A model generated the notes under the pieces. That model did no database searches. It worked only from the letters and a program-made list of their open reading frames with translations, and was not told the origin of the DNA. Position numbers and translations under genes: made by a program. Positions 1,760 to 19,448 of a DNA stretch of 20,339 bases are shown in pieces. Positions within the stretch are counted from its first letter, which is position 1; every line of letters starts with the position of its first letter. The DNA is from a virus: the IMG/VR virus record IMGVR_UViG_3300009420_003882, positions 1-20,339 of that record; one strand, 5' to 3'.

Positions 1760-2407
1760 ATGATTAGAAAAAGAGCAAAGGTACATATGTTACCTACAGA
1801 AAGGGGTATAATAGCAACTTTCAAAAAAACAAATAAATTATCAAAACCTAACTTTAATGTTGGTATATTTGAAAGTGATGTATTTCAACCTCAACACCTC
1901 TACTTCACAAATGATGAAGAGATTAAGGATGGATATTGGTATTTAGCAACTATTTTTGGGCATGGAACGGAAGAAACTAAACCCTTACAATGGTCAGTTG
2001 GTACTAAACCATGTGGCGAACAACCAATGGGACGTAAAATCATAGCATCTACTGACCCTAAATTAATCAAATCAATAGAAGGATTAGAAGTATTTGGATT
2101 AAGTGAGAGAATTGCTAAACCATCACAAGCATTCATCAAAGCTTATTGTGAGCAAGCTGGATTTAATGAAGTTGATGTTGAGTATGAAGTTAATCATGTT
2201 TTAGATTTAGAAATTTTAGATGGAAAGACTCGTGTTAAAGGAACAATTTTTATACCTAAAGTAGACCCAATACACAACACTGTAACAATTCATCCTATTG
2301 TTGAGAAAATGTATCGTCTTAGTACAATCATTGAACTTTTAGAGGAATCGAGAGGAGAGTTTGAAGATTCTGATGATAAAATTGAATGGATTAAAGAAAA
2401 CTTATAG
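1760..2407 (+). CDS. Conserved phage-type protein of unknown function (MLPTE/HLYFTNDEEIK family)
   Basis: A 215-residue soluble protein starting MIRKRAKVHMLPTERG. The pattern of an N-terminal MLPTE, then QHLYFTNDEEIKDGYWYL (residues about 45-62) and a middle segment with RKIIASTDPKLI recalls a widespread family of uncharacterised proteins in Bacteroidota phages, including crAss-like phages, and plasmids. I recognise the pattern but know no function. The central AYCEQAGFNEVDVEYE segment is also typical. The C-terminus KIEWIKENL is repeated almost exactly at the ends of the next two small genes. The gene follows the ECF sigma gene by 9 nt and is probably in the same operon. Confidence 0.75.
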   Translation: MIRKRAKVHMLPTERGIIATFKKTNKLSKPNFNVGIFESDVFQPQHLYFTNDEEIKDGYWYLATIFGHGTEETKPLQWSVGTKPCGEQPMGRKIIASTDPKLIKSIEGLEVFGLSERIAKPSQAFIKAYCEQAGFNEVDVEYEVNHVLDLEILDGKTRVKGTIFIPKVDPIHNTVTIHPIVEKMYRLSTIIELLEESRGEFEDSDDKIEWIKENL

Positions 2408-2417
2408 ATATGGAAAA
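2385..2417 (+). repeat. Gene-border repeat, copy 1
   Basis: This stretch spans the 3' end of the 1760 gene (coding EWIKENL), its stop and the start codon of the next gene. Its last 28 nt (2390-2417) recur without mismatch at 2668-2695, and its first 17 nt (2385-2401) recur exactly at 2836-2852. The repeat therefore joins the end of one gene to the leader and first codons of the next. Confidence 0.85.
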
Positions 2418-2685
2418 GAAAGACATTGTAAAATATATGGCTACGATTGTAGCAAACTTAAATGCTAAAGAAAAGTTCTCTAAAACTTACTATAGAATAT
2501 TAGGTGGTCTTGAAGGGATGCTTATTTGTATTGGCAAGATACCATTACAAGGGGAGTTACCTTATATTGAAGTGCCGCACACTCGCAAGTCATTCTTTGG
2601 AAAGAAGATTGAAGAGACTAGAACTGAGTTATATCATGAATTGATTATTAGACTTGTAAAAGAGGTAATTAAAGAAAACTTATAG
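2410..2685 (+). CDS. Small orphan protein between border repeats
   Basis: A 91-residue protein with no family I recognise. It begins MEKKDIVKYMATIVANLNAK, has a middle segment GGLEGMLICIGKIPLQGELP that could form a short beta-rich core, and ends in a basic/amphipathic helix finishing VIKENL. It starts 2 nt after the previous stop, with the leader TATAGATATG. Start and end both fall inside near-identical short repeats shared with its neighbours, which suggests the gene is an exchangeable cassette in an otherwise fixed operon. Confidence 0.65.
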   Translation: MEKKDIVKYMATIVANLNAKEKFSKTYYRILGGLEGMLICIGKIPLQGELPYIEVPHTRKSFFGKKIEETRTELYHELIIRLVKEVIKENL

Positions 2686-2695
2686 ATATGGAAAA
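2668..2695 (+). repeat. Gene-border repeat, copy 2
   Basis: 28 nt identical to 2390-2417, again covering a gene's last codons (IKENL), its stop, the leader TAGAT and the next gene's ATGGAAAA. Exact identity across a coding end, a non-coding leader and a coding start is not expected from protein conservation alone and points to duplication or recombination. Confidence 0.85.
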
Positions 2696-2864
2696 ATTTA
2701 ATTGGAAATTGACATTGTTTGGAATTTGTTTTACTTGGCTTATGAGTATAGTACTCTTACCAAAAATAACATTTAATGAGTATGCTATTATTTCTACAAT
2801 ATTTTCTGTTGCTATTGTAGCAATTGTTAATATTCAATGGATTAAAGAAAACCTTAAACAATAG
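2688..2864 (+). CDS. Small two-helix membrane protein
   Basis: A 58-residue ORF starting ATGGAAAAATTT. It reads MEKFNWKLTLFGICFTWLMS, then IVLLPKITFNEYAIIST, then IFSVAIVAIVNIQWIKENL and KQ. Two hydrophobic stretches (about 8-25 and 32-49) separated by a short polar turn predict a hairpin membrane protein. Its ending IQWIKENL copies the ends of the two preceding genes. The start sits in the shared TATAGATATG leader, 2 nt after the previous stop. Function is unknown; phage membrane miniproteins of this size often act in lysis control or superinfection exclusion, but nothing here shows that. Confidence 0.6.
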   Translation: MEKFNWKLTLFGICFTWLMSIVLLPKITFNEYAIISTIFSVAIVAIVNIQWIKENLKQ

Positions 2865-2872
2865 AGATATGA
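2836..2872 (+). repeat. Gene-border repeat, copy 3 (composite)
   Basis: The first part (2836-2852) equals 2385-2401, and the last part (2854-2872, TTAAACAATAGAGATATGA) equals 3060-3078. This border therefore shares its left half with the upstream borders and its right half with the next one downstream. Confidence 0.8.
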
Positions 2873-3063
2873 TAAAAGTTAAAAGAAAAACTAAAAGAGA
2901 ACTTATTAGAAATAGATATTCGGGTGGTAGTTGGCATGAGAATGTAACTACAATATACTATTCGTTTTTAGGATTCAATGTGAAAACTATTCACAAATAC
3001 TTTATTTCTTATAGAGGAGAATTATGTACAACGGCTACTAATTTTTTCAATAAACCATTTTAA
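2869..3063 (+). CDS. Small basic orphan protein
   Basis: A 64-residue ORF starting MIKVKRKTKRELIRNRYSGG and ending TNFFNKPF. The first 17 residues are strongly basic; the rest is rich in aromatic residues (TIYYSFLGFNV, IHKYFISYRG) and could be a small beta structure. I do not recognise the family. I choose the ATG at 2869 rather than the earlier in-frame TTG at 2824, because 2869 follows the stop of the membrane-protein gene and carries the AATAGAGATATG leader used repeatedly in this operon. Confidence 0.55.
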   Translation: MIKVKRKTKRELIRNRYSGGSWHENVTTIYYSFLGFNVKTIHKYFISYRGELCTTATNFFNKPF

Positions 3064-3078
3064 ACAATAGAGATATGA
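3060..3078 (+). repeat. Gene-border repeat, copy 4
   Basis: 19 nt identical to 2854-2872, spanning the end of the 2869 gene and the ATG of a 9-codon ORF. Confidence 0.75.
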
Positions 3079-3104
3079 ATGATTTAAAGAAGGACTTAAT
3101 TTAA
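3075..3104 (+). other. Nine-codon ORF between two leaders (possible empty cassette)
   Basis: After the AATAGAGATATG leader, an ORF of only nine codons (MNDLKKDLI) ends in TAA and is followed at once by another AATAAAGATATG leader. The peptide resembles a bare gene end like the IKENL ends upstream. It may be what remains after loss of a cassette gene, or a leader peptide. I do not claim a functional protein. Confidence 0.35.
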
Positions 3105-3111
3105 TAAAGAT

Positions 3112-3207
3112 ATGAAAAGTTTAGGAGATAGAATGAAGATTGACATGGAAACACCCGTTTTCACTGAAGATACAGGTTATCTACAAGACCCAATTCCAAC
3201 TATTTAA
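3112..3207 (+). CDS. Very short ORF, possible gene fragment
   Basis: A 31-codon ORF (MKSLGDRMKIDMETPVF, then TEDTGYLQDPIPTI) preceded by AATAAAGATATG. The opening KSLGDRMK is reminiscent of the N-terminus of Thg1-like tRNA-His guanylyltransferases, but the remainder does not continue that family and no catalytic residues are present. If related, it is a fragment. It could also be an independent miniprotein. No related sequence is visible in the other frames just downstream. Confidence 0.35.
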   Translation: MKSLGDRMKIDMETPVFTEDTGYLQDPIPTI

Positions 3208-5311: not shown

Positions 5312-5479
5312 ATGATAGAATTCTTTGAATTTCTTAATTCTTGCTCACAACCGAGAACTATACTATATTTATTATTCATAATGATAATGACATACATGAC
5401 CTTCGTAGGGTTAGTTGGTCTAGTTAGAACAATAAGAGGTTGTAATGAAGAAGATTACGACGATACAGAAAAAGAATAG
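5312..5479 (+). CDS. Small single-pass membrane protein
   Basis: A 55-residue ORF, 2 nt after the Nudix stop: MIEFFEFLNSCSQPRTILYL, then LFIMIMTYMTFVGLVGLVRT, then IRGCNEEDYDDTEKE. A hydrophobic segment at about 17-38 followed by a highly acidic tail predicts a single membrane helix. No family is recognised. Its tight placement between the Nudix and Smr genes supports translation as part of the operon. Confidence 0.6.
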   Translation: MIEFFEFLNSCSQPRTILYLLFIMIMTYMTFVGLVGLVRTIRGCNEEDYDDTEKE

Positions 5480-5481
5480 AA

Positions 5482-5703
5482 ATGAATAGACTTGATTTAC
5501 ACGGTTTTAAACATATCGAGGTTCCAAGAATACTTGAACAGTTTATATACGACCAAATTAACAGAGATAGTAAAGAGATAGAGGTTGTTACTGGGAATAG
5601 TATTAGGATGAAAAGTATTGTCAAGGAAATAGCTGATGATTATGGTATGGAAGCCAAAGAACTATGGGGTAACAATGGTACAATGGTAATAAAGCTAGTG
5701 TGA
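5482..5703 (+). CDS. Small Smr-domain protein
   Basis: A stand-alone Smr (small MutS-related) domain of 73 residues. The hallmarks are the N-terminal LDLHG (4-8), a helix with EQFIYDQI, and the strand-loop VEVVTG-type motif EIEVVTGNSIRMKSIVKEI (about 32-50), where TGxGxxS is usual. Smr domains nick or bind nucleic acid, and bacterial examples act as endonucleases on RNA or branched DNA. The gene starts 2 nt after the membrane-protein stop, and its TGA overlaps the GTG start of the GIY-YIG gene (GTGA), implying translational coupling. Confidence 0.8.
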   Translation: MNRLDLHGFKHIEVPRILEQFIYDQINRDSKEIEVVTGNSIRMKSIVKEIADDYGMEAKELWGNNGTMVIKLV

Positions 5704-7474: not shown

Positions 7475-7603
7475 GTGAAGTGGTTGGTTGAGTATTGTTT
7501 AGATAATGACGTAGACTTACCAGAATATAATTCACATTCAGCCAATCCACTAGGTCGAGAGAACATACTTAGTTATTTAACTAATTTTAAAAAATCACAA
7601 TAA
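7475..7603 (+). pseudogene. Open 42-codon reading frame without a good start (fragment?)
   Basis: A frame open from the stop at 7448-7450 to TAA at 7601-7603 reads VKWLVEYCLDNDVDLPEYNS, then HSANPLGRENILSYLTNFKK. The only starts are TTG 7472 or GTG 7475. An ATG at 7452 is in another frame and ends after eight codons. Composition looks coding, so a gene whose 5' part suffered a frameshift is one explanation. The phrase CLDND(x)LP also appears in the interrupted frame at 17040-17160. No family is recognised. The rest of the 7422-7640 gap holds only the next promoter. Confidence 0.35.
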
Positions 7604-8167: not shown

Positions 8168-10123
8168 ATGAATAAAGAAAATAAGATAAAGGTAGGTGAC
8201 GTATTGGAAGGAACCATCAGCATGAACGCTAGTGGTAGTTGTTACCTTACAAGTAAAGACCTACCTAAGGATATATATATCCATAATACAAAGACCAATA
8301 AAGCATTGCATCTTGACCTAGTTAAGATTGAAGTTGTTAGTGGTAAGGGTCAAAAAGGTATTGAAGGTCGAGTAATTGAAATACTTGAGAGATTTAAAGA
8401 TACCTTTGTTGGTACACTTCAAGTATCTGAGAGATATGCATTTCTTGTACCAGACTCTAAGAAGATGTCAATTGATATCTTTATTCCACTATCAAAACTA
8501 ATGGGTGGTACAGATGGTCAGAAAGCTGTTGGCAAATTAACCAACTGGAAGGATGATGCAAAGTCACCTAACGGAAAGATAATTGAAGTACTAGGTGATG
8601 CTGGTGATAATGACGTAGAGATTCATTCGATATTACATGAATACGACCTACCCTATTCTTTTGATGAAGATGTTATTGCAGAATCAGAACTAATTTCAGA
8701 GGTTATTACCGATAAGGAAATAAGTAAAAGAAAGGACATGCGTAATGTACTTACATTTACCATTGACCCAGACACAGCTAAGGACTTCGATGATGCCCTT
8801 TCAGTAGAATGGGTAGATGGTAAGATGGTTGTTGGTGTTCACATTGCAGATGTATCACACTACCTAAGACCAGACACGTCTTTAGACAAGGAAGCACTTG
8901 CAAGAGGGACTTCGGTTTATCTTGTGGATAGAGTGGTTCCAATGCTACCAGAGAGACTTTCTAATGGATTGTGTAGTCTTAGACCACACGAAGATAAACT
9001 ATGCTTCTCAGCTGTGTTTACTCTTGACAGCAACGGTCATGTAATGAATGAATGGTTCGGAAGAACTGTGATTCATAGCGACCATAGGTTCACATATGAA
9101 GGTGCACAAGATATTATTGAAGGGGATACGGAAAAAATATTTCAAGGTTTCGGGATGGACTTTGACCCAATTCTATATAATATGTTAATTGATGCTGTAA
9201 CCCGATTAGATAAGACCGCTAAGAAGATGAGAGCACAACGTTTCAAGCGTGGTTCTATTTCATTCGATAACCAAGAGATTAAGTTCAAGTTGGATGAGAA
9301 CAACAAACCAGTTGATATCCTATTCAAGATACAAAAGGATTCTAACAAGTTGATTGAGGAATACATGCTATTAGCTAACAGACATGTAGCGACCTTCCTT
9401 AAGAAGAAAGGACCTTGTGTTAACAGAGCGCATGATAAGCCAGACCCAACTAAGTTGGAATCACTTAAGGAGTTCGTTGCACCATTAGGGTATCATATCA
9501 AGACTGGGAATGCAGATGAGATTACATCAACACTGAATCAATTGTTAATTGATGTTAAGGGTACACCACTTGAGATTATGATTGGAAATCTTGTGGTAAG
9601 AACTATGCAGAAGGCTAACTATACTACTGAGAACATGGGTCACTATGGTCTTGGGTTTAAGGACTATGCACACTTTACCTCACCAATTAGGAGATATGCA
9701 GATGTTATCATCCACAGAATGCTTGGAAGGGCTTTAGAGGGTAAATCGTCTATGAAACCATCTAAGTTAGAGGCTAGATGTAAGCACATTTCAGAAAGAG
9801 AGATAAAAGCACAGAAGGCTTCTAGAGATTCGGATAAGTACATGCAATGCATCTACATGTCTGAACGTGTAGGTAAGCTATTCAAGGGTAGAATTTCATC
9901 AGTTCAAGAGTACGGTGTATTCGTTAGTATTGATGAGAATGGTTGTGAAGGTCTTGTAAGACTATCAGAGATTGGTGGTGATACATTCACAGCTGATGTA
10001 CTTAACCACTGTGTGATTGGTCACAATACTGGTGAGAAGATTCACTTAGGTGATGAGATTGACATCGTTGTTAAGGGTGTTGATGTTGAAAGAAAGAATA
10101 TTGATTTTACACTAATAAGATAA
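8168..10123 (+). CDS. rnr: RNase R family 3'-5' exoribonuclease
   Basis: A 651-residue RNase II/R enzyme. There is an N-terminal OB/cold-shock-like region (about 8-110, including FVGTLQVSERYAFLVPD). The RNB catalytic domain starts near 190, with the active-site cluster IDPDTAKDFDDA (199-210; four Asp for two metals). VHIADVSHYL and VVPMLPERLSNGLCSLRP follow, and the C-terminal S1 domain begins at about 575 (GKLFKGRISSVQEYGVFVSI). All hallmarks appear intact. It lacks the long basic tail of E. coli RNase R and is somewhat shorter than cellular Bacteroidota RNase R. It degrades structured RNA and, with tmRNA-SmpB, non-stop mRNA. An smpB gene lies 1.5 kb downstream. The stop overlaps the next ATG by one base. 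Confidence 0.95.
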   Translation: MNKENKIKVGDVLEGTISMNASGSCYLTSKDLPKDIYIHNTKTNKALHLDLVKIEVVSGKGQKGIEGRVIEILERFKDTFVGTLQVSERYAFLVPDSKKMSIDIFIPLSKLMGGTDGQKAVGKLTNWKDDAKSPNGKIIEVLGDAGDNDVEIHSILHEYDLPYSFDEDVIAESELISEVITDKEISKRKDMRNVLTFTIDPDTAKDFDDALSVEWVDGKMVVGVHIADVSHYLRPDTSLDKEALARGTSVYLVDRVVPMLPERLSNGLCSLRPHEDKLCFSAVFTLDSNGHVMNEWFGRTVIHSDHRFTYEGAQDIIEGDTEKIFQGFGMDFDPILYNMLIDAVTRLDKTAKKMRAQRFKRGSISFDNQEIKFKLDENNKPVDILFKIQKDSNKLIEEYMLLANRHVATFLKKKGPCVNRAHDKPDPTKLESLKEFVAPLGYHIKTGNADEITSTLNQLLIDVKGTPLEIMIGNLVVRTMQKANYTTENMGHYGLGFKDYAHFTSPIRRYADVIIHRMLGRALEGKSSMKPSKLEARCKHISEREIKAQKASRDSDKYMQCIYMSERVGKLFKGRISSVQEYGVFVSIDENGCEGLVRLSEIGGDTFTADVLNHCVIGHNTGEKIHLGDEIDIVVKGVDVERKNIDFTLIR

Positions 10124-11609: not shown

Positions 11610-12059
11610 ATGGAACAAATTACTAGAAATAAGAAAGCGTATTTTGAGTACTTCATTGAAGATACCTACACTGCTGGTCTTGTACTACTAGGTAGTGAGG
11701 TCAAGTCAATTAGGCACGGTAATGTTTCTATCAAAGAAGCTTACTGTATCGTAATTGATGGTGAAATGTTCATAAGGGGTATGCACATTTCACCATTCAA
11801 AGAATCTGGGATGCACCAGAATCATGACCCAACTAGGGAAAGAAAACTATTATTGAATAAAAAAGAAATTCTTAAGTTGCAAGAAAAAGTAACCCAAAAA
11901 GGTTTTACTATAATACCACTTAAGATTATAATAACAAAGAGGGGGTTAATCAAGATAGATATCGGACTTGGTATGGGTAAAAAATTATTCGATAAGAAAA
12001 ACACTATTCGTGAAAAGGATGTAAAGCGGGATACTGATAGAGAATTAAAAAATATTTAA
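11610..12059 (+). CDS. smpB: SsrA-binding protein SmpB
   Basis: A 149-residue SmpB of normal length. The OB-fold signature is complete: NKKAYFEYFIEDTYTAGLVL (7-26), GSEVKSIRHGNVSIKEAY (28-45), MHISPF (58-63), NHDPTRERKLLL (71-82), ITKRGLIKIDIGLGMGKKLFDKK (107-130) and the tail IREKDVKRDTDREL. SmpB binds tmRNA and places it in stalled ribosomes, the C-terminal tail filling the mRNA channel. It has its own promoter. No tmRNA gene is seen in the window, so it would use host or elsewhere-encoded ssrA. Just past the stop, the -1 frame encodes a second copy of the tail motif, with a slippery A_AAA_AAT at 12049-12055 in phase. Confidence 0.95.
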   Translation: MEQITRNKKAYFEYFIEDTYTAGLVLLGSEVKSIRHGNVSIKEAYCIVIDGEMFIRGMHISPFKESGMHQNHDPTRERKLLLNKKEILKLQEKVTQKGFTIIPLKIIITKRGLIKIDIGLGMGKKLFDKKNTIREKDVKRDTDRELKNI

Positions 12060-12163: not shown

Positions 12164-13039
12164 ATGAAAGGAATTTCAATCTCAACAAGCATTACCACTA
12201 GGGAATCAGAATCATTTAAGAAATATTTAAGAGATATCTCTAATATCAAACCATTCGCAACACCAGAGGATGAGGAAATATGTGCATTCAAAGCTTGGGA
12301 GGGTGATGACTTAGCAAAGAAAGAATTGGTTACGAGAAATCTTAGGTTCGTAGTTTCTTGTGCAAAGCAATATCAAATAAAGGGTGTTCCCCTTGAGGAC
12401 CTTGTTAATGAAGGGAATATAGGTATGACCAAAGCAGCGAACAAATTCAACCCAACAATGGGATTCAAGTTTATAACATTTGCTGTGTGGGACATCAAAA
12501 AGACTATCAACGAATATCTTACCAACAATAGTAGAACAATTAGATTACCAAACAATAAGGTTAATTCCCTTAATAAGTTCAAGAAGCACCTTTCTAGTCT
12601 TGAACAAATTCTTGAGAGACCACCAACTAATTACGACATAATTGAACACTATTCATCAGAGTATTCTATGGATGAAATTGAGAGGTTGAGTGATTTGTTG
12701 TACAATGAATCATCTTCTTCTCTAGATATGAGTATTGGTGATGATGGTGCAACACTAGGTAACCTACTTACAGATTCATCAATGGGTAATGCTGATATGT
12801 TTGTAGTTGCTGGTGATATGGAAGTCAACATAAACAACGTATTATCAACACTTAAACCAATGGATAAGGAAATTATAGTCAAGTTGTTCGGTTTAGATGG
12901 TGAAACACCATATACACTTGCTGATGTTGGTGACATGATGGCGTTGAGTAGAGAGAGTATCAGACAAAAAAAAGAGGGTGCTTTTAGGTTATTACGTAAT
13001 AAATTTAAAACAAACGCTAAAGACATCCTTAACAATTAA
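12164..13039 (+). CDS. Primary-type (RpoD/sigma-ABfr-like) sigma factor
   Basis: A 291-residue sigma-70 protein with the layout of the Bacteroidota primary sigma. The region 1.2-like start is SISTSITTRESESFKKYLRD (5-24). Region 2 follows (TRNLRFVVSCAKQYQIKG 57-74; EDLVNEGNIGMTKAANKF 78-95; GFKFITFAVWDIKKTINEYL 100-119), then region 3 (IRLPNNKVNSLNKFKKHLS, 126-144) and region 4 (LSTLKPMDKEIIVKLFGLDG, 227-246; TLADVGDMMALSRESIRQKK, 251-270). The near-invariant AVWWIRQSI of region 2.3/2.4 reads AVWDIKKTI, so promoter melting or -7 recognition may differ from the host sigma. The class II promoters all lie downstream of this gene, making it a candidate reader of them. No promoter of its own is evident, so it is probably co-transcribed with smpB. 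Confidence 0.92.
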   Translation: MKGISISTSITTRESESFKKYLRDISNIKPFATPEDEEICAFKAWEGDDLAKKELVTRNLRFVVSCAKQYQIKGVPLEDLVNEGNIGMTKAANKFNPTMGFKFITFAVWDIKKTINEYLTNNSRTIRLPNNKVNSLNKFKKHLSSLEQILERPPTNYDIIEHYSSEYSMDEIERLSDLLYNESSSSLDMSIGDDGATLGNLLTDSSMGNADMFVVAGDMEVNINNVLSTLKPMDKEIIVKLFGLDGETPYTLADVGDMMALSRESIRQKKEGAFRLLRNKFKTNAKDILNN

Positions 13040-15262: not shown

Positions 15263-15898
15263 ATGAAAGAGTTAACCGTAGAGGTTGGATTCACAACCGA
15301 TTGCATGGGTGAGGTCTCATCCATCAAGCTAGAATTTTCAGATAACGTATTAGAATCAATTAGAAAGCACCAAGCTTACGTGAAGGACAATAGTGATGTA
15401 TTTAAAGTCGTTATGGACTTCGATGCTGAATTGCTTGATAGTGATGGGAATGAAACAGAATTTTTTAGAACTTATGGTGGTGAGTTATTCATCTTTCAAG
15501 AGACACTATATTACTTCACACAATCGAAGTATGATGCTAGTGTTCAAATAGAATCTAACGAATTCCAATTAACAGACATCTTAACTGAGGAAGAATATGA
15601 TGCATTCTCTAGAAGCTCTCTAACGTGCAATGAATGTGCATCTGATGTTGACTTATGTGAATGTGGTGTGTTGAACGTTAAAAACGCTCGTAAGTTGCTT
15701 AAAGAGGAAGGACACTTTGTTGAGAACCTTTGGTGTAGTGGAGATATTATCGGTACTGGTGAGAACATGGATATCGAAATCTCAGAAGAACAAGCACTAG
15801 AAATTATGGGGTTGATGGGTCGTAGACACGATGCGACGATTGGTGTCAATTGGGACTTCATTGAAACAATCATCGAAGAATATTTTAATAACAAATAA
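15263..15898 (+). CDS. Acidic protein of the small-protein array, with Cys cluster
   Basis: A 211-residue acidic protein, the largest of the array. The N-terminal 130 residues look beta-rich (MKELTVEVGFTTDCMGEVSS start). A cysteine cluster at about 120-137 (LTCNECASDVDLCECGVLNV) could bind one zinc, and the rest is helical (ISEEQALEIMGLMGRRH). No family recognised. It starts immediately after AAGTAACT and is driven by class II promoter 3 through the GACCA-loop leader. Confidence 0.7.
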   Translation: MKELTVEVGFTTDCMGEVSSIKLEFSDNVLESIRKHQAYVKDNSDVFKVVMDFDAELLDSDGNETEFFRTYGGELFIFQETLYYFTQSKYDASVQIESNEFQLTDILTEEEYDAFSRSSLTCNECASDVDLCECGVLNVKNARKLLKEEGHFVENLWCSGDIIGTGENMDIEISEEQALEIMGLMGRRHDATIGVNWDFIETIIEEYFNNK

Positions 15899-15909
15899 AC
15901 TAAGTAACT

Positions 15910-16086
15910 ATGAGTAATCAAGACAAAGTATTAAAAGTAGTAATGGAAAGATATGGTTCGTTAACCGAATTGTATGAAGATATGAGAGAAGATGTGGATG
16001 TAGTACTAGTCAATCTAGCTTATGACCTTAATGATGAATTAGATGAAGATGAAATTGAAGATGTAATTCACAAATTATTAACCTAA
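15910..16086 (+). CDS. Tiny acidic array protein
   Basis: A 58-residue ORF, MSNQDKVLKVVMERYGSLTE, then LYEDMREDVDVVLVNLAYDL, then NDELDEDEIEDVIHKLLT. Very acidic and helical. AAGTAACT touches the ATG, and the next gene starts 13 nt after its stop, which supports it as real. Function unknown. Confidence 0.7.
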   Translation: MSNQDKVLKVVMERYGSLTELYEDMREDVDVVLVNLAYDLNDELDEDEIEDVIHKLLT

Positions 16087-16099
16087 AAACCAAGTAACT

Positions 16100-16642
16100 A
16101 TGAGTAAAGTAGCAAGATTAGTAGAGTTCTCACTTTTAACGAGAGTAATCGTTGAAGAGAACGCAACAGAAGACCAAATTATCAAAGCATCCTACAAGGG
16201 AATTCAAGCTAAGATTGATAACCGAGAATTGGGTGACAACCTAGTGGAGAATGACCTAGACGATGAATGTCCGTTCGGTACGTTCGATACGGATAACCCA
16301 AGGGTAACAGTTGTCTTATTGAGTACAGTTGATAAGAAGTATCTAGTAACGGGTAGAGGATTACCATTACAGATTATATCATTTGTTGACTATTCAGATT
16401 GGGATTCTATTAAGGGTATGGATGATAATGCTGTGTTGGATTGTGAGATTGACTTTGATGATTCAGTTGAAGAGAAGGACATGGATAAATTCTACTCATT
16501 CCAAACGGTAAATCTAGTAGAGAATGAGGATGGTAGTGTTTCAATGGGGCATCATTATGAAAATGCTGATGAATTAATTGTATCCCACAAACCACTGGCA
16601 GAAGCGATTGTAGAACATTCTTCAAAAATAAACCTTAAATAA
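16100..16642 (+). CDS. Acidic array protein
   Basis: A 180-residue acidic protein starting MSKVARLVEFSLLTRVIVEE. Repeated stretches such as NDLDDECPFGTFDTDNP and FDDSVEEKDMDKFYSFQ are rich in Asp/Glu, while the end GHHYENADELIVSHKPLAEA contains histidines. No family recognised. Carries the AAGTAACT leader; the last gene of this transcription unit before the next class II promoter. Confidence 0.7.
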   Translation: MSKVARLVEFSLLTRVIVEENATEDQIIKASYKGIQAKIDNRELGDNLVENDLDDECPFGTFDTDNPRVTVVLLSTVDKKYLVTGRGLPLQIISFVDYSDWDSIKGMDDNAVLDCEIDFDDSVEEKDMDKFYSFQTVNLVENEDGSVSMGHHYENADELIVSHKPLAEAIVEHSSKINLK

Positions 16643-16674
16643 TTAGGAATATCAATAAAGATGTTGTATCTTTG
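16643..16674 (+). promoter_or_regulatory. Class II promoter, copy 4 (16697 gene)
   Basis: TTAGGAATATC (from 16643) and TATCTTTG (16667-16674), 23-nt phase conserved. It begins right at the stop of the previous gene. Confidence 0.82.
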
Positions 16675-16696
16675 TTGAACACCAAAACACAGAGAT

Positions 16697-16978
16697 ATGA
16701 AAAAGGTTTACATTTTACAGACTGGAAGTTACAACAAGACAAGTGATAGATTTGAATTCTATGATGTAGAAGTATTCTCATCAAAGAAGAAGTTAGAAGC
16801 TAGTGTTGAGAATAGTATGGTTGATTGTAACAAGGGTTATGATATTGTTCGTGAACATCATGATTATCACTCTAGTGATTTACAATACACTATGATTGAC
16901 TATAAGTGCTTATCAGCGGATTCAAGTGGTAGAGAAATGAAGGTAAGATACCTTCTTAAGGTAAAAGAATTACGATAA
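16697..16978 (+). CDS. Small orphan protein
   Basis: A 93-residue protein, MKKVYILQTGSYNKTSDRFE, then FYDVEVFSSKKKLEASVENS and so on, with an alpha/beta look and a KKLEASVEN helix. No family recognised. Unlike its neighbours, its leader is CACAGAGATATG, the second leader type otherwise found in the 2400-3114 cluster. The GT-rich non-coding segment follows immediately. Confidence 0.65.
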   Translation: MKKVYILQTGSYNKTSDRFEFYDVEVFSSKKKLEASVENSMVDCNKGYDIVREHHDYHSSDLQYTMIDYKCLSADSSGREMKVRYLLKVKELR

Positions 16979-17212
16979 GATATTAAGATACGTGCCAAGC
17001 AAATATCCTTACGAGGAGGCTAATGTTCCATTGACATGACGAGAACTAGGGTAGTGCCTAGATAATGACTTACCACTCAAGGGTACAGTTGTGGCTAGTA
17101 GTAGACTAGGTTGGAGGTGTAAGCCATCGCATGGTTCTAATTGATAAAGACTCAACATCTATAAACCTAACCCTATTATCAAGGGGACAGCACACGTTGG
17201 TTGGAAAGTTAA
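16979..17212 (+). ncRNA. Segment without an intact gene: structured RNA or decayed ORF
   Basis: Between the 16697 gene and a terminator, 234 nt lack any intact ORF. Against RNA: one frame from 16992 reads protein-like (VPSKYPYEEANVPLT; CLDNDLPLKGTVVASSRLGW; KPNPIIKGTAHVGWKVRK), broken by TGA, TAG and TGA-TAA, and it contains a loose internal repeat KGT..GW. For RNA: local hairpins such as CTAGG-GTAGTG-CCTAG (17047-17062) and CCAT-CGC-ATGG (17124-17134), higher G content, and the strong terminator directly behind. I cannot match it to tmRNA, RNase P, a tRNA or a group I intron. Confidence 0.4.
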
Positions 17213-17255
17213 GGTACGTAAGTTGAGCGAAAGTAGATTTACGTACCACTTTTTT
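17213..17255 (+). terminator. Intrinsic terminator behind the non-coding segment
   Basis: GGTACGTAA (17213-17221) pairs perfectly with TTACGTACC (17239-17247); a G-T pair can extend the stem. The loop is 15 nt, and T6 follows at 17250-17255. It ends the transcript from class II promoter 4. Confidence 0.75.
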
Positions 17256-17264
17256 AAAAAAATA

Positions 17265-17296
17265 TTAGGATATGTCATTTATTATCCTTATATTTG
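17265..17296 (+). promoter_or_regulatory. Class II promoter, copy 5 (17355 operon)
   Basis: TTAGGATATGTC (from 17265) and TATATTTG (17289-17296), phase 23 nt. This copy has lost one base pattern of the GAATA part (GATAT) but keeps TTAGGA. Confidence 0.75.
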
Positions 17297-17318
17297 TTTT
17301 AACAATTTAAATAAACCA

Positions 17319-17339
17319 GTTGGGGTGACCAATCCTAAC
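17319..17339 (+). ncRNA. Leader hairpin, copy 2 (GACCA loop)
   Basis: GTTGGGGT-GACCA-ATCCTAAC forms the same 8-bp stem and GACCA loop as 15226-15246. The flanking leader (CAATTTAA, AACCA before; AGTAACT after) is also shared. Base changes between the copies retain pairing. Confidence 0.6.
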
Positions 17340-17354
17340 ACAAAACAAGTAACT

Positions 17355-17717
17355 ATGAGTAACTGTAAAGCATCAACAAGTGTAAGTCATTTTATTATTG
17401 ACGTTTCCAATGAACAAGCTGTATTAGATACGCTAATGGAGATTATGGAGCAAGATAATGACCTTACTGAGAATGAAGATTATTTCCAAGAAGACACCCT
17501 AACTCTAGGGTTCGAATCAGAAGCAGACCGTATCGTGAAGGAGTACATCAAAGAGAATGGTGTACCTAAGACCACAACAGAATACGAGAAAGCATTCAAT
17601 AAAATTTCAGAAAGCATTTCAAACCAAGAGTACTTTGGTCAATGTTCAGTAGATTTTTTAAAGATTGATGATACCAACATATCAGTGACTTTCATGATTG
17701 GTGGTCAAGAAGATTAA
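17355..17717 (+). CDS. Acidic array protein
   Basis: A 120-residue acidic protein beginning MSNCKASTSVSHFIIDVSNE and ending VTFMIGGQED. The middle is strongly acidic (EIMEQDNDLTENEDYFQEDT). I use ATG 17355 with its AAGTAACT leader; an upstream in-frame TTG at 17223 lies inside the terminator loop and before the promoter, so it is rejected. No family recognised. Confidence 0.72.
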   Translation: MSNCKASTSVSHFIIDVSNEQAVLDTLMEIMEQDNDLTENEDYFQEDTLTLGFESEADRIVKEYIKENGVPKTTTEYEKAFNKISESISNQEYFGQCSVDFLKIDDTNISVTFMIGGQED

Positions 17718-17735
17718 TATATAGTATAATATATA
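17718..17735 (+). repeat. AT-only near-palindrome, copy 2
   Basis: TATATAGTATAATATATA starts right after the stop of the 17355 gene and runs into the AAACCAAGTAACT leader of the next. One mismatch with 13469-13486. The related stretch at 18224-18240 sits in the same position relative to the 18077 gene. Confidence 0.5.
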
Positions 17736-17747
17736 AACCAAGTAACT

Positions 17748-18056
17748 ATGAATAAAGTAAAATTAGTGTTCGCAGATGCTGAAGGAAACCTTACTGGGAA
17801 AGAGCAAGTACTAGACCTTCCAACTGAGTTAGATAAGCAGAACCAAAAGACCGATAACATGGATTGGGATGAGGACAAAGACAATGCTATTCAAGAGTAT
17901 GAAAGCCTATGTATCATGAGCGTAGACTTAGCTGATGAGGTTGGATTCAACAAGGGGGTTGGAAGTCCATGGGCTGAGTTCAGAAAGCTAACAGACCAAG
18001 ATAAAGCAGATGGTGTCTCAATGTGTATTGAGATATATGATAGAGATAATGATTAA
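17748..18056 (+). CDS. Acidic array protein
   Basis: A 102-residue protein, MNKVKLVFADAEGNLTGKEQ start, ending MCIEIYDRDND. Asp/Glu-rich throughout (DNMDWDEDKDNAIQEYESL). AAGTAACT abuts the ATG. No family recognised; extreme acidity is shared with its neighbours. Confidence 0.7.
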   Translation: MNKVKLVFADAEGNLTGKEQVLDLPTELDKQNQKTDNMDWDEDKDNAIQEYESLCIMSVDLADEVGFNKGVGSPWAEFRKLTDQDKADGVSMCIEIYDRDND

Positions 18057-18076
18057 ACCAAATAAACCAAGTAACT

Positions 18077-18229
18077 ATGAGTAAGACAATCAAAATACAT
18101 TTTTCAGAAGAAGACCTTCAAGACTTACAAAATGGGGAGACATTTATATGGTCATTCAACACAAAAGAAACCAACGAATTAATTGACGTTGAATTATTCT
18201 TAGGTGATGAAACAGAAGATGAAATATAG
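18077..18229 (+). CDS. Tiny acidic array protein
   Basis: A 50-residue ORF, MSKTIKIHFSEEDLQDLQNG, then ETFIWSFNTKETNELIDVEL, then FLGDETEDEI. Beta-strand, helix, strand pattern with an acidic end. AAGTAACT abuts the ATG at 18077, and the next gene has the same arrangement, which supports it as real. No family recognised. Confidence 0.68.
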   Translation: MSKTIKIHFSEEDLQDLQNGETFIWSFNTKETNELIDVELFLGDETEDEI

Positions 18230-18240
18230 AGTATAATATA
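18224..18240 (+). repeat. AT-rich near-palindrome, copy 3 (diverged)
   Basis: ATATAGAGTATAATATA overlaps the stop of the 18077 gene and is a diverged relative of 17718-17735, again followed by an AAACC-type leader. Confidence 0.4.
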
Positions 18241-18260
18241 AACCAACAAACCTAGTAACT

Positions 18261-18401
18261 ATGAAGAAAGTAAAATCAATTGATATCCTTAACTGGCATG
18301 GTAGCGACCATTCCATAGAAGAATTAGCCGAAATAATGGCTGAAATCTTGAATGGGGAATATCCCGTAGAACTAGCAAGAGAGGAAATCCTTAATTATTA
18401 A
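18261..18401 (+). CDS. Tiny acidic array protein
   Basis: A 46-residue ORF, MKKVKSIDILNWHGSDHSIE, then ELAEIMAEILNGEYPVELAR, then EEILNY. A helical, acidic miniprotein. TAGTAACT abuts its ATG. No family recognised. Confidence 0.66.
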   Translation: MKKVKSIDILNWHGSDHSIEELAEIMAEILNGEYPVELAREEILNY

Positions 18402-18420
18402 CCAAATAAATCTAGTAACT

Positions 18421-18609
18421 ATGTTAAATACAAAACAGATTAAAACATTACAATCTAAAGATTGGAGTGTAAAAGATAAAGGGTTCTACATTACCATCTA
18501 TTCAGATGAAGTTGATGGTGACGTGTGGAGACAACTTTGTGAGCAAGTTGATGTCTCAATCGATGCGACTGAGATTACCGTATTAGGATTCGGAGTAATT
18601 AGTAAATAA
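18421..18609 (+). CDS. Small array protein
   Basis: A 62-residue protein, MLNTKQIKTLQSKDWSVKDK, then GFYITIYSDEVDGDVWRQLC, ending VLGFGVISK. A compact alpha/beta pattern, less acidic than its neighbours. TAGTAACT abuts the ATG. No family recognised. Confidence 0.68.
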   Translation: MLNTKQIKTLQSKDWSVKDKGFYITIYSDEVDGDVWRQLCEQVDVSIDATEITVLGFGVISK

Positions 18610-18620
18610 ACCAAGTAACT

Positions 18621-18824
18621 ATGAAAGAGCCAAGAGAAGATTGTATTCATTTAGATAGATTGAATGAAATATGGAGTATATCATATAAGGGGATATGGTA
18701 TGAAGTACATGTTGATGCAACAGAAGAACGTAAAATCTATGATACCTTCGCTGAGAGTGGTGAAGTAACACCCGAAATCTATAAGCACCTAGAGGAAGAG
18801 GTGAGTAAAATTGATAACATATAA
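18621..18824 (+). CDS. Acidic array protein
   Basis: A 67-residue acidic protein, MKEPREDCIHLDRLNEIWSI start, SYKGIWYEVHVDATEERKIY middle, helical acidic end. AAGTAACT abuts the ATG, 11 nt after the previous stop. No family recognised. Confidence 0.68.
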   Translation: MKEPREDCIHLDRLNEIWSISYKGIWYEVHVDATEERKIYDTFAESGEVTPEIYKHLEEEVSKIDNI

Positions 18825-18845
18825 TAACCAATAAACTAAGTAACT

Positions 18846-19043
18846 ATGAGCAACAATAAAAAGATTTATGTAAGATTAGGTGTCGAAGATATCGTTTTAC
18901 CAGTAGAAGAAGTAGAAAACTTTAATGGATATTTAACTGCCATTGATGAGGAAGGGAATGAAATCGCAACACCATGTTCTTATACCATTGGGTATGAAGA
19001 TAAGGATGGAAACGAATGTGAAAAGGACGGAACACCACTATAA
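18846..19043 (+). CDS. Acidic array protein
   Basis: A 65-residue acidic, beta-rich protein, MSNNKKIYVRLGVEDIVLPV start, ending EDKDGNECEKDGTPL. AAGTAACT abuts the ATG. No family recognised. Confidence 0.68.
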   Translation: MSNNKKIYVRLGVEDIVLPVEEVENFNGYLTAIDEEGNEIATPCSYTIGYEDKDGNECEKDGTPL

Positions 19044-19064
19044 ACCACTAAAACCCAAGTAACT

Positions 19065-19448
19065 ATGAAAACAATTGAAGGAATTAACTTTCACAACTTA
19101 GAGGTTGTTATTAAAGGTACAGATTACCAAAGACACGATATAGACTTAGGAGCATTAACACTATCAGTTGATGGTAGAGAGTTCATCTTAGACGTTGTAC
19201 AGTCGTACAGTGATGAAGTTGAGGAAGATGGTACACTTAGGATAACTTGTGACATTGAAGTAGATGAAGATACTTTTGATGAATGTCCATATGATTTGAC
19301 TAAGGATGACCTATTGGATTGCGAACACAACAACCTTGAACGCACCTTGTTTGTTGGTGGTGAGGTAGAATTTGATGTAGTGTCAATCACCTTACATTTC
19401 GATGATTGCAATGGTCAAGACTACCAATTATTGGTCGATGAAGACTAA
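19065..19448 (+). CDS. Acidic array protein
   Basis: A 127-residue, strongly acidic, beta-rich protein (DVVQSYSDEVEEDGTLRITC, then DIEVDEDTFDECPYDLTKDD; ends FDDCNGQDYQLLVDED). The last member of the AAGTAACT array before the FtsK promoter. No family recognised; the charge and beta pattern would suit a DNA-mimic protein, but that is speculation. Confidence 0.7.
   Translation: MKTIEGINFHNLEVVIKGTDYQRHDIDLGALTLSVDGREFILDVVQSYSDEVEEDGTLRITCDIEVDEDTFDECPYDLTKDDLLDCEHNNLERTLFVGGEVEFDVVSITLHFDDCNGQDYQLLVDED

Follow-up and report, generated by a model that had tools for sequence, protein, structure and literature searches.

The exact repeats at consecutive gene borders of this phage DNA are best explained as recurrent borders at a fast-changing accessory locus, marked by stop-start leaders, copied tails of one gene (g215) and turnover via short repeats. 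We place the probability of this reading at about two in three. The window, that is the whole stretch of 20,339 nt analysed here, is a complete virus record and a metagenomic fragment. A Bacteroidetes host is suggested by protein matches in Flavobacterium and Cellulophaga phages along with TTTG/TAnnTTTG promoter-like sequences. The repeats have two components, an A-rich leader before start codons and a copied 3' end of g215 (Table 1). In the proposed mechanism, each border would supply an A-rich translation start and stops in two other frames, ending the previous gene and opening the next, and the first three borders would additionally bear a copy of the g215 3' end. Genes would enter and leave through recombination at short repeats of 9-28 nt. 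The genes g91 and g58 would have been inserted at the end of g215 via template switching or illegitimate recombination, with tail and leader copied each time, and genes would exit by deletion between short repeats, as for thg1.

Exact repeats at consecutive gene borders

The exact repeats described in the initial annotation were all recovered: 28 nt (2390/2668), 17 nt (2385-2401/2836-2852) and 19 nt (2854/3060). Each of them covers, as had been stated, the last codons of a gene, its stop, the leader and the following ATG. The 17-nt match lies at the core of a longer, imperfect pair of 28 nt that starts at 2374 and 2825. As a chance control, the longest exact repeat was scored in 100 third-order Markov shuffles. 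The shuffle maximum was 18 nt window-wide and 16 nt for pairs at most 800 nt apart. The 28-nt repeat is longer than the longest repeat of every shuffle and is therefore not a chance event, and the 19-nt repeat exceeded every shuffle value for pairs within 800 nt. A 24-nt pattern of the border with the g215 tail gave four matches in viral contigs, all within the coding sequence of one unrelated phage, and these were rejected as chance. A role of the borders as promoters or structured RNA was also rejected, as neither was seen; the flavobacterial -7 element TAnnTTTG is absent from the border sequences.

Table 1. Features of the border locus and of the second leader array in the window.
Feature	Position	Strand	Evidence
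g215, PHROG 15656 family protein, source of the WIKENL tail	1760..2407	+	PHROG E 1.8e-23
g215 3' end from which the tail was copied	2374..2401	+	25/28 identical to 2825-2852
Border copy 1, IKENL-stop-leader-ATGGAAAA	2390..2417	+	28/28 identical to 2668-2695
g91, orphan, 91 aa, copied IKENL tail at end	2410..2685	+	no Pfam/PHROG match
Border copy 2	2668..2695	+	28/28 identical to 2390-2417
g58, hydrophobic orphan of 58 aa, ending in WIKENLKQ	2688..2864	+	no relative found
g215-tail copy closing g58	2825..2852	+	25/28 identical
Leader type A, full form TTAAACAATAGAGATATGA	2854..2872	+	exact copy at 3060-3078
g64, orphan, 64 aa	2869..3063	+	no relative found
Leader type A, second full copy	3060..3078	+	identical to 2854-2872
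Probable fossil 3' end of a homologue of the L067 128-aa gene	3082..3114	+	carries the 'empty slot'
thg1 deletion scar as read from the L067 alignment, 31 aa (first 9 and last 22 residues of tRNA-His guanylyltransferase)	3112..3207	+	92/96 nt
Single remaining 9-nt repeat copy AGAATGAAG at the deletion junction	3130..3138	+	join to L067 thg1
Second array, 11 starts with leader type C (..ATAAACCAAGTAACT-ATG)	15263..19448	+	0 clusters in 10 shuffles

Leaders before unrelated small genes

Besides its two full copies, the type A leader occurs at 2402 and 2680 in contracted form, directly before start codons. Type A was found at 6-7 gene starts (5 exact) in G003, the 88-kb record holding locus L004, at 2-3 gene starts in L020/L021 and as one copy in L067, the closest relative of the window. 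A sister leader, type B (TAAACCAAAACAAAGATG), occurs in 8, 5 and 4 copies in G003, G008 and G015, on the coding strand only, and the reversed pattern, taken as control for these counts, gave no match. In two other phages the genes that follow type A are small and unrelated, as are those that follow type B in three. In the second array of the window, the type C starts span 15263 to 19065, and one weak match to this leader was found in the records of ten relatives. The leader sequences of the arrays are TAAACAATAGAGATATG, TAAACCAAAACAAAGATG and ATAAACCAAGTAACTATG, and in the window, leaders of one array resemble each other far more than they resemble those of the other array.

An all-against-all comparison of about 42 leader-headed genes gave one clear cross-phage homologous pair (window 18846 and G003 31631), along with one further, weak match (E 0.002 over 22 residues). 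The two members of the homologous pair carry different leaders, so the leaders belong to arrays and not to genes. Besides the window, leader clusters were present in 2 of the 112 locus strands examined, and the exact full type A leader had 7 scattered matches in bacterial genomes, about the chance level. Leader clusters are therefore not a general rule. A wider proposal, offered tentatively and somewhat against the odds, is that otherwise unrelated Bacteroidetes phages share portable stop-start joints, meaning A-rich leaders with stops in two other frames, which would make orphan small genes interchangeable while each array homogenises its own leader.

Gene turnover between conserved flanks

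The locus is hypervariable and lies between flanks that are conserved, a ribose-phosphate pyrophosphokinase gene on one side and thg1 or an A1-type DNA transfer gene on the other. From pyrophosphokinase to A1, the window carries one sigma factor gene, g215, g91, g58, g64 and remnants, L067 carries two sigma factor genes, a 60-aa and a 128-aa gene and thg1, and L003 carries two small genes and thg1. L002 has another gene set upstream of thg1, with no pyrophosphokinase seen in the stretch examined. The genes between the borders had been called unrelated orphans, and this description holds: g91, g58 and g64 gave no Pfam or PHROGs match, no relatives were found for them, and they are mutually unrelated (best blastp E 0.018). 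The idea that the array genes are diverged paralogues was set aside, being without blastp support at that value. For g91, no relatives were present in viral contigs and phage matches were no better than E 0.7. Exchange appears to have affected the A1 gene itself, since the A1 protein of L067 (5001-6575) is about 41% identical to that of the window, far below the about 83-85% of the adjoining prs, NUDIX and GIY-YIG proteins.

In L067, thg1 is intact (282 aa) and carries AGAATGAAA twice, once close to each end, at a spacing of 753 nt. A join made at the two copies leaves 96 nt, 92 of them identical to the window. By this comparison, the ORF 3112-3207 arose by in-frame deletion of thg1 between 9-nt direct repeats. 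It is without an intact Thg1 domain (PF04446), which is intact in L003 and L002 and full length in L067. In L030 (1635-1889) and L032, thg1 has independently lost an internal part in frame, with apparent AAGG microhomology, and an 84-codon frame is left.

The nine-codon interval 3075-3104 had been proposed as an empty cassette slot. The interval is there, but the 33 nt ahead of the thg1 scar resemble the end of the 128-aa gene of L067, so that it is probably a fossil of a lost gene's 3' end. Positions 3084-3137 align with L067 4051-4107 at 84% over 57 positions, thg1 start included. Among ATG-anchored segments, none of the 358 in L067 scored as well, and 12 of the 34,126 from other loci did. 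The alternative of a functional gene of nine codons at 3075 was dropped, the fossil being preferred.

These observations bear on whether co-infecting phages exchange whole cassettes through homologous recombination at the borders, which is close to what had been suggested for this locus from the repeats. Common leaders flank different genes across phages, and gene content between the conserved flanks differs in every informative relative. The 28-nt border would also permit exact, seamless excision of g91. However, no two genomes were found whose sole difference is one gene lying between two copies of the 28-nt border, no swapped pair was observed, the demonstrated event at thg1 used intragenic 9-nt repeats, and the same gene lies under different leaders in two phages, so that leader and gene are not one travelling unit there. 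The earlier suggestion is supported in part. Border exchange of cassettes as the whole explanation is doubtful; within the preferred reading of recurrent borders with short-repeat turnover, exchange may take place at the 28-nt border itself.

Source of the copied tail

The match of g215 to the PHROG 15656 profile covers 106-231 of 231, C-terminus included. The C-terminus W[IV]x[EDQ]NL was present in 19 of the 25 loci of this family. Of the 68 viral sites that match the DNA pattern of the tail, 56 lie at the end of a g215-family gene. Family members of the Cellulophaga phages phi14:2, phi38:1 and phi4:1 end in WIKENL, WVKENL and WVEENL, respectively. The genes at 2410 (g91) and 2688 (g58) carry the tail with the same codons as g215, and neither matches PHROG 15656. 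As the tail is native to the g215 family and g91 and g58 lie outside it, copying ran from g215 to its two downstream neighbours. The WIKENL ends had been taken as neutral borders; they were instead copied from the 3' end that a single gene family conserves. In L116, a 52-aa ORF ends in a similar junction of tail and leader.

The chief rival on this point holds that g215 paralogues once stood here in tandem and decayed, the tails being leftovers of head-to-tail copies whose downstream bodies were replaced or deleted and whose 3' ends were fused to other frames. Tandems of the family do exist, 678 nt apart in L137 and L176 and 900 nt apart in L162. Tail-only or shortened family forms are found in L118, L114, L115, L159 and L167; that in L118 (about 5336-5485, reverse strand) is a 49-aa gene which keeps the C-terminal part alone. 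The g215 relatives in L004 and phi38:1 start with ME, as do g91 and g58. On the other hand, g91 and g58 have no other likeness to the g215 family, and the 28-nt identity crosses stop, leader and start, for which a single recent copying is simpler. We consider paralogue decay unlikely, and hold that g91 and g58 would have been inserted by tail-copying recombination.

Possible function of the leader

In Flavobacterium johnsoniae, translation starts without Shine-Dalgarno pairing, and A at -3, -6, -12 and -13 together with low structure raises translation (PMC6847099). The leaders resemble these initiation regions in the same adenines and in having little structure near the start, and differ from them in that 16-19 nt are nearly identical throughout an array. 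Every copy counted has adenine at -12, and all but two have it at -13 as well; types A and B share an A at -6, and types B and C one at -3. The mean MFE of the leaders ranged from -0.6 (window) to -1.5, against a background of -5.2 kcal/mol. Nearly all full-form type A copies have stops at -14 and -7, both in frames other than that of the start. With stops in two other frames and a start codon, the leader would close almost any upstream gene and open the next. The protein ends KQ and NQNKDE ahead of leaders are the leader itself translated. On sequence features and the literature, the leader is probably an A-rich, unstructured, non-Shine-Dalgarno translation start, and it may have been retained for good translation starting.

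The likeness among leaders could partly reflect common selection on Bacteroidetes start sites. That such convergent selection acted alone, with no role in gene exchange, is improbable: the leaders do fit the known start determinants (PMC6847099), but near-identical blocks of 16-18 nt are local to each array, no clusters appeared in shuffles, most relatives have no arrays, and the copied g215 tail and the identity beyond the start codon are left unaccounted for. Least probable of all is WIKENL as a functional C-terminal peptide tag gained by unrelated proteins, which would suit the extreme conservation of the end in a family just about 30-45% identical and the tail on the L116 ORF, but not the identical codons and the identity into the non-coding leader and next start, which point to DNA copying, nor the two residues of g58 beyond WIKENL.

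Comparison with known systems

The closest known kinds are the start-associated sequences (SAS) of cluster K mycobacteriophages and the PeSL cassettes of T4-like phages. A PeSL consists of an early promoter and a stem-loop. The cassettes in T4-like phages were reportedly described by Arbiol in 2010 and Comeau in 2014. PeSL cassettes are like the present borders in being an intergenic repeated expression signal proposed to shuffle small accessory genes (PMC4503421). They differ in that the signal here is a nearly unstructured translation leader without evident promoter or hairpin.

SAS and ESAS are asymmetric short repeats just upstream of the starts of many unrelated gene families (PMC3203893). 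Like them, the leaders lie immediately upstream of starts of different-family genes, nearly all in one orientation, and are common to related phages. In contrast to the G-rich SAS consensus GGGATAGGAGCCC, the leaders are A-rich, have no Shine-Dalgarno sequence and do not match that consensus, and the 17-bp inverted repeats of SAS/ESAS were not seen here. The present repeat also overlaps the end of the previous gene, has its own form in each array and adjoins a copied tail.

The ORFanage of cyanophage S-PM2 is likewise a losable block of orphan genes; there, one deletion of many ORFs was attributed to mispackaging (PMC4503421), whereas here a single gene was lost between 9-nt repeats. The borders are unlike integron cassettes, being unstructured and without inverted repeats (no attC-like site), and no integrase was found among the window proteins scanned, which were part of the window ORFs. 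The papers searched gave no account of leaders of this kind in phages of Bacteroidetes, which is weak evidence of absence.

Other features of the window

The window encodes both protein partners of trans-translation, an RNase R-like RNB protein (8168-10123; PF00773, E 3e-108) and SmpB (11610-12059; PF01668, E 3e-56); tmRNA was not found in the window. A non-coding gap at 16979-17250 ends in a strong hairpin and T-run (GGTACGTAAG..TACGTACC ACTTTTTT) and is a candidate small RNA, with no Rfam match and an overall fold z of only -1.23. Promoter-like repeated blocks were observed at 7594, 13527, 13968, 15160, 16622, 17254 and 19472, most of them with TTAGGAAT and ending in TATCTTTGT or TATATTTGT. 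These blocks may serve the phage's own sigma factors (1151-1750 and 12164-13039).

Significance

The origin of phage orphan genes, and their insertion into operons without breaking the neighbours, is an open question. For annotation, the locus carries a warning, as two tiny ORFs here, the thg1 scar and probably the nine-codon interval, are remnants and not genes. With borders, copied tails and a deletion scar readable at one locus, it offers a testable picture of stop-start signals and short-repeat turnover.
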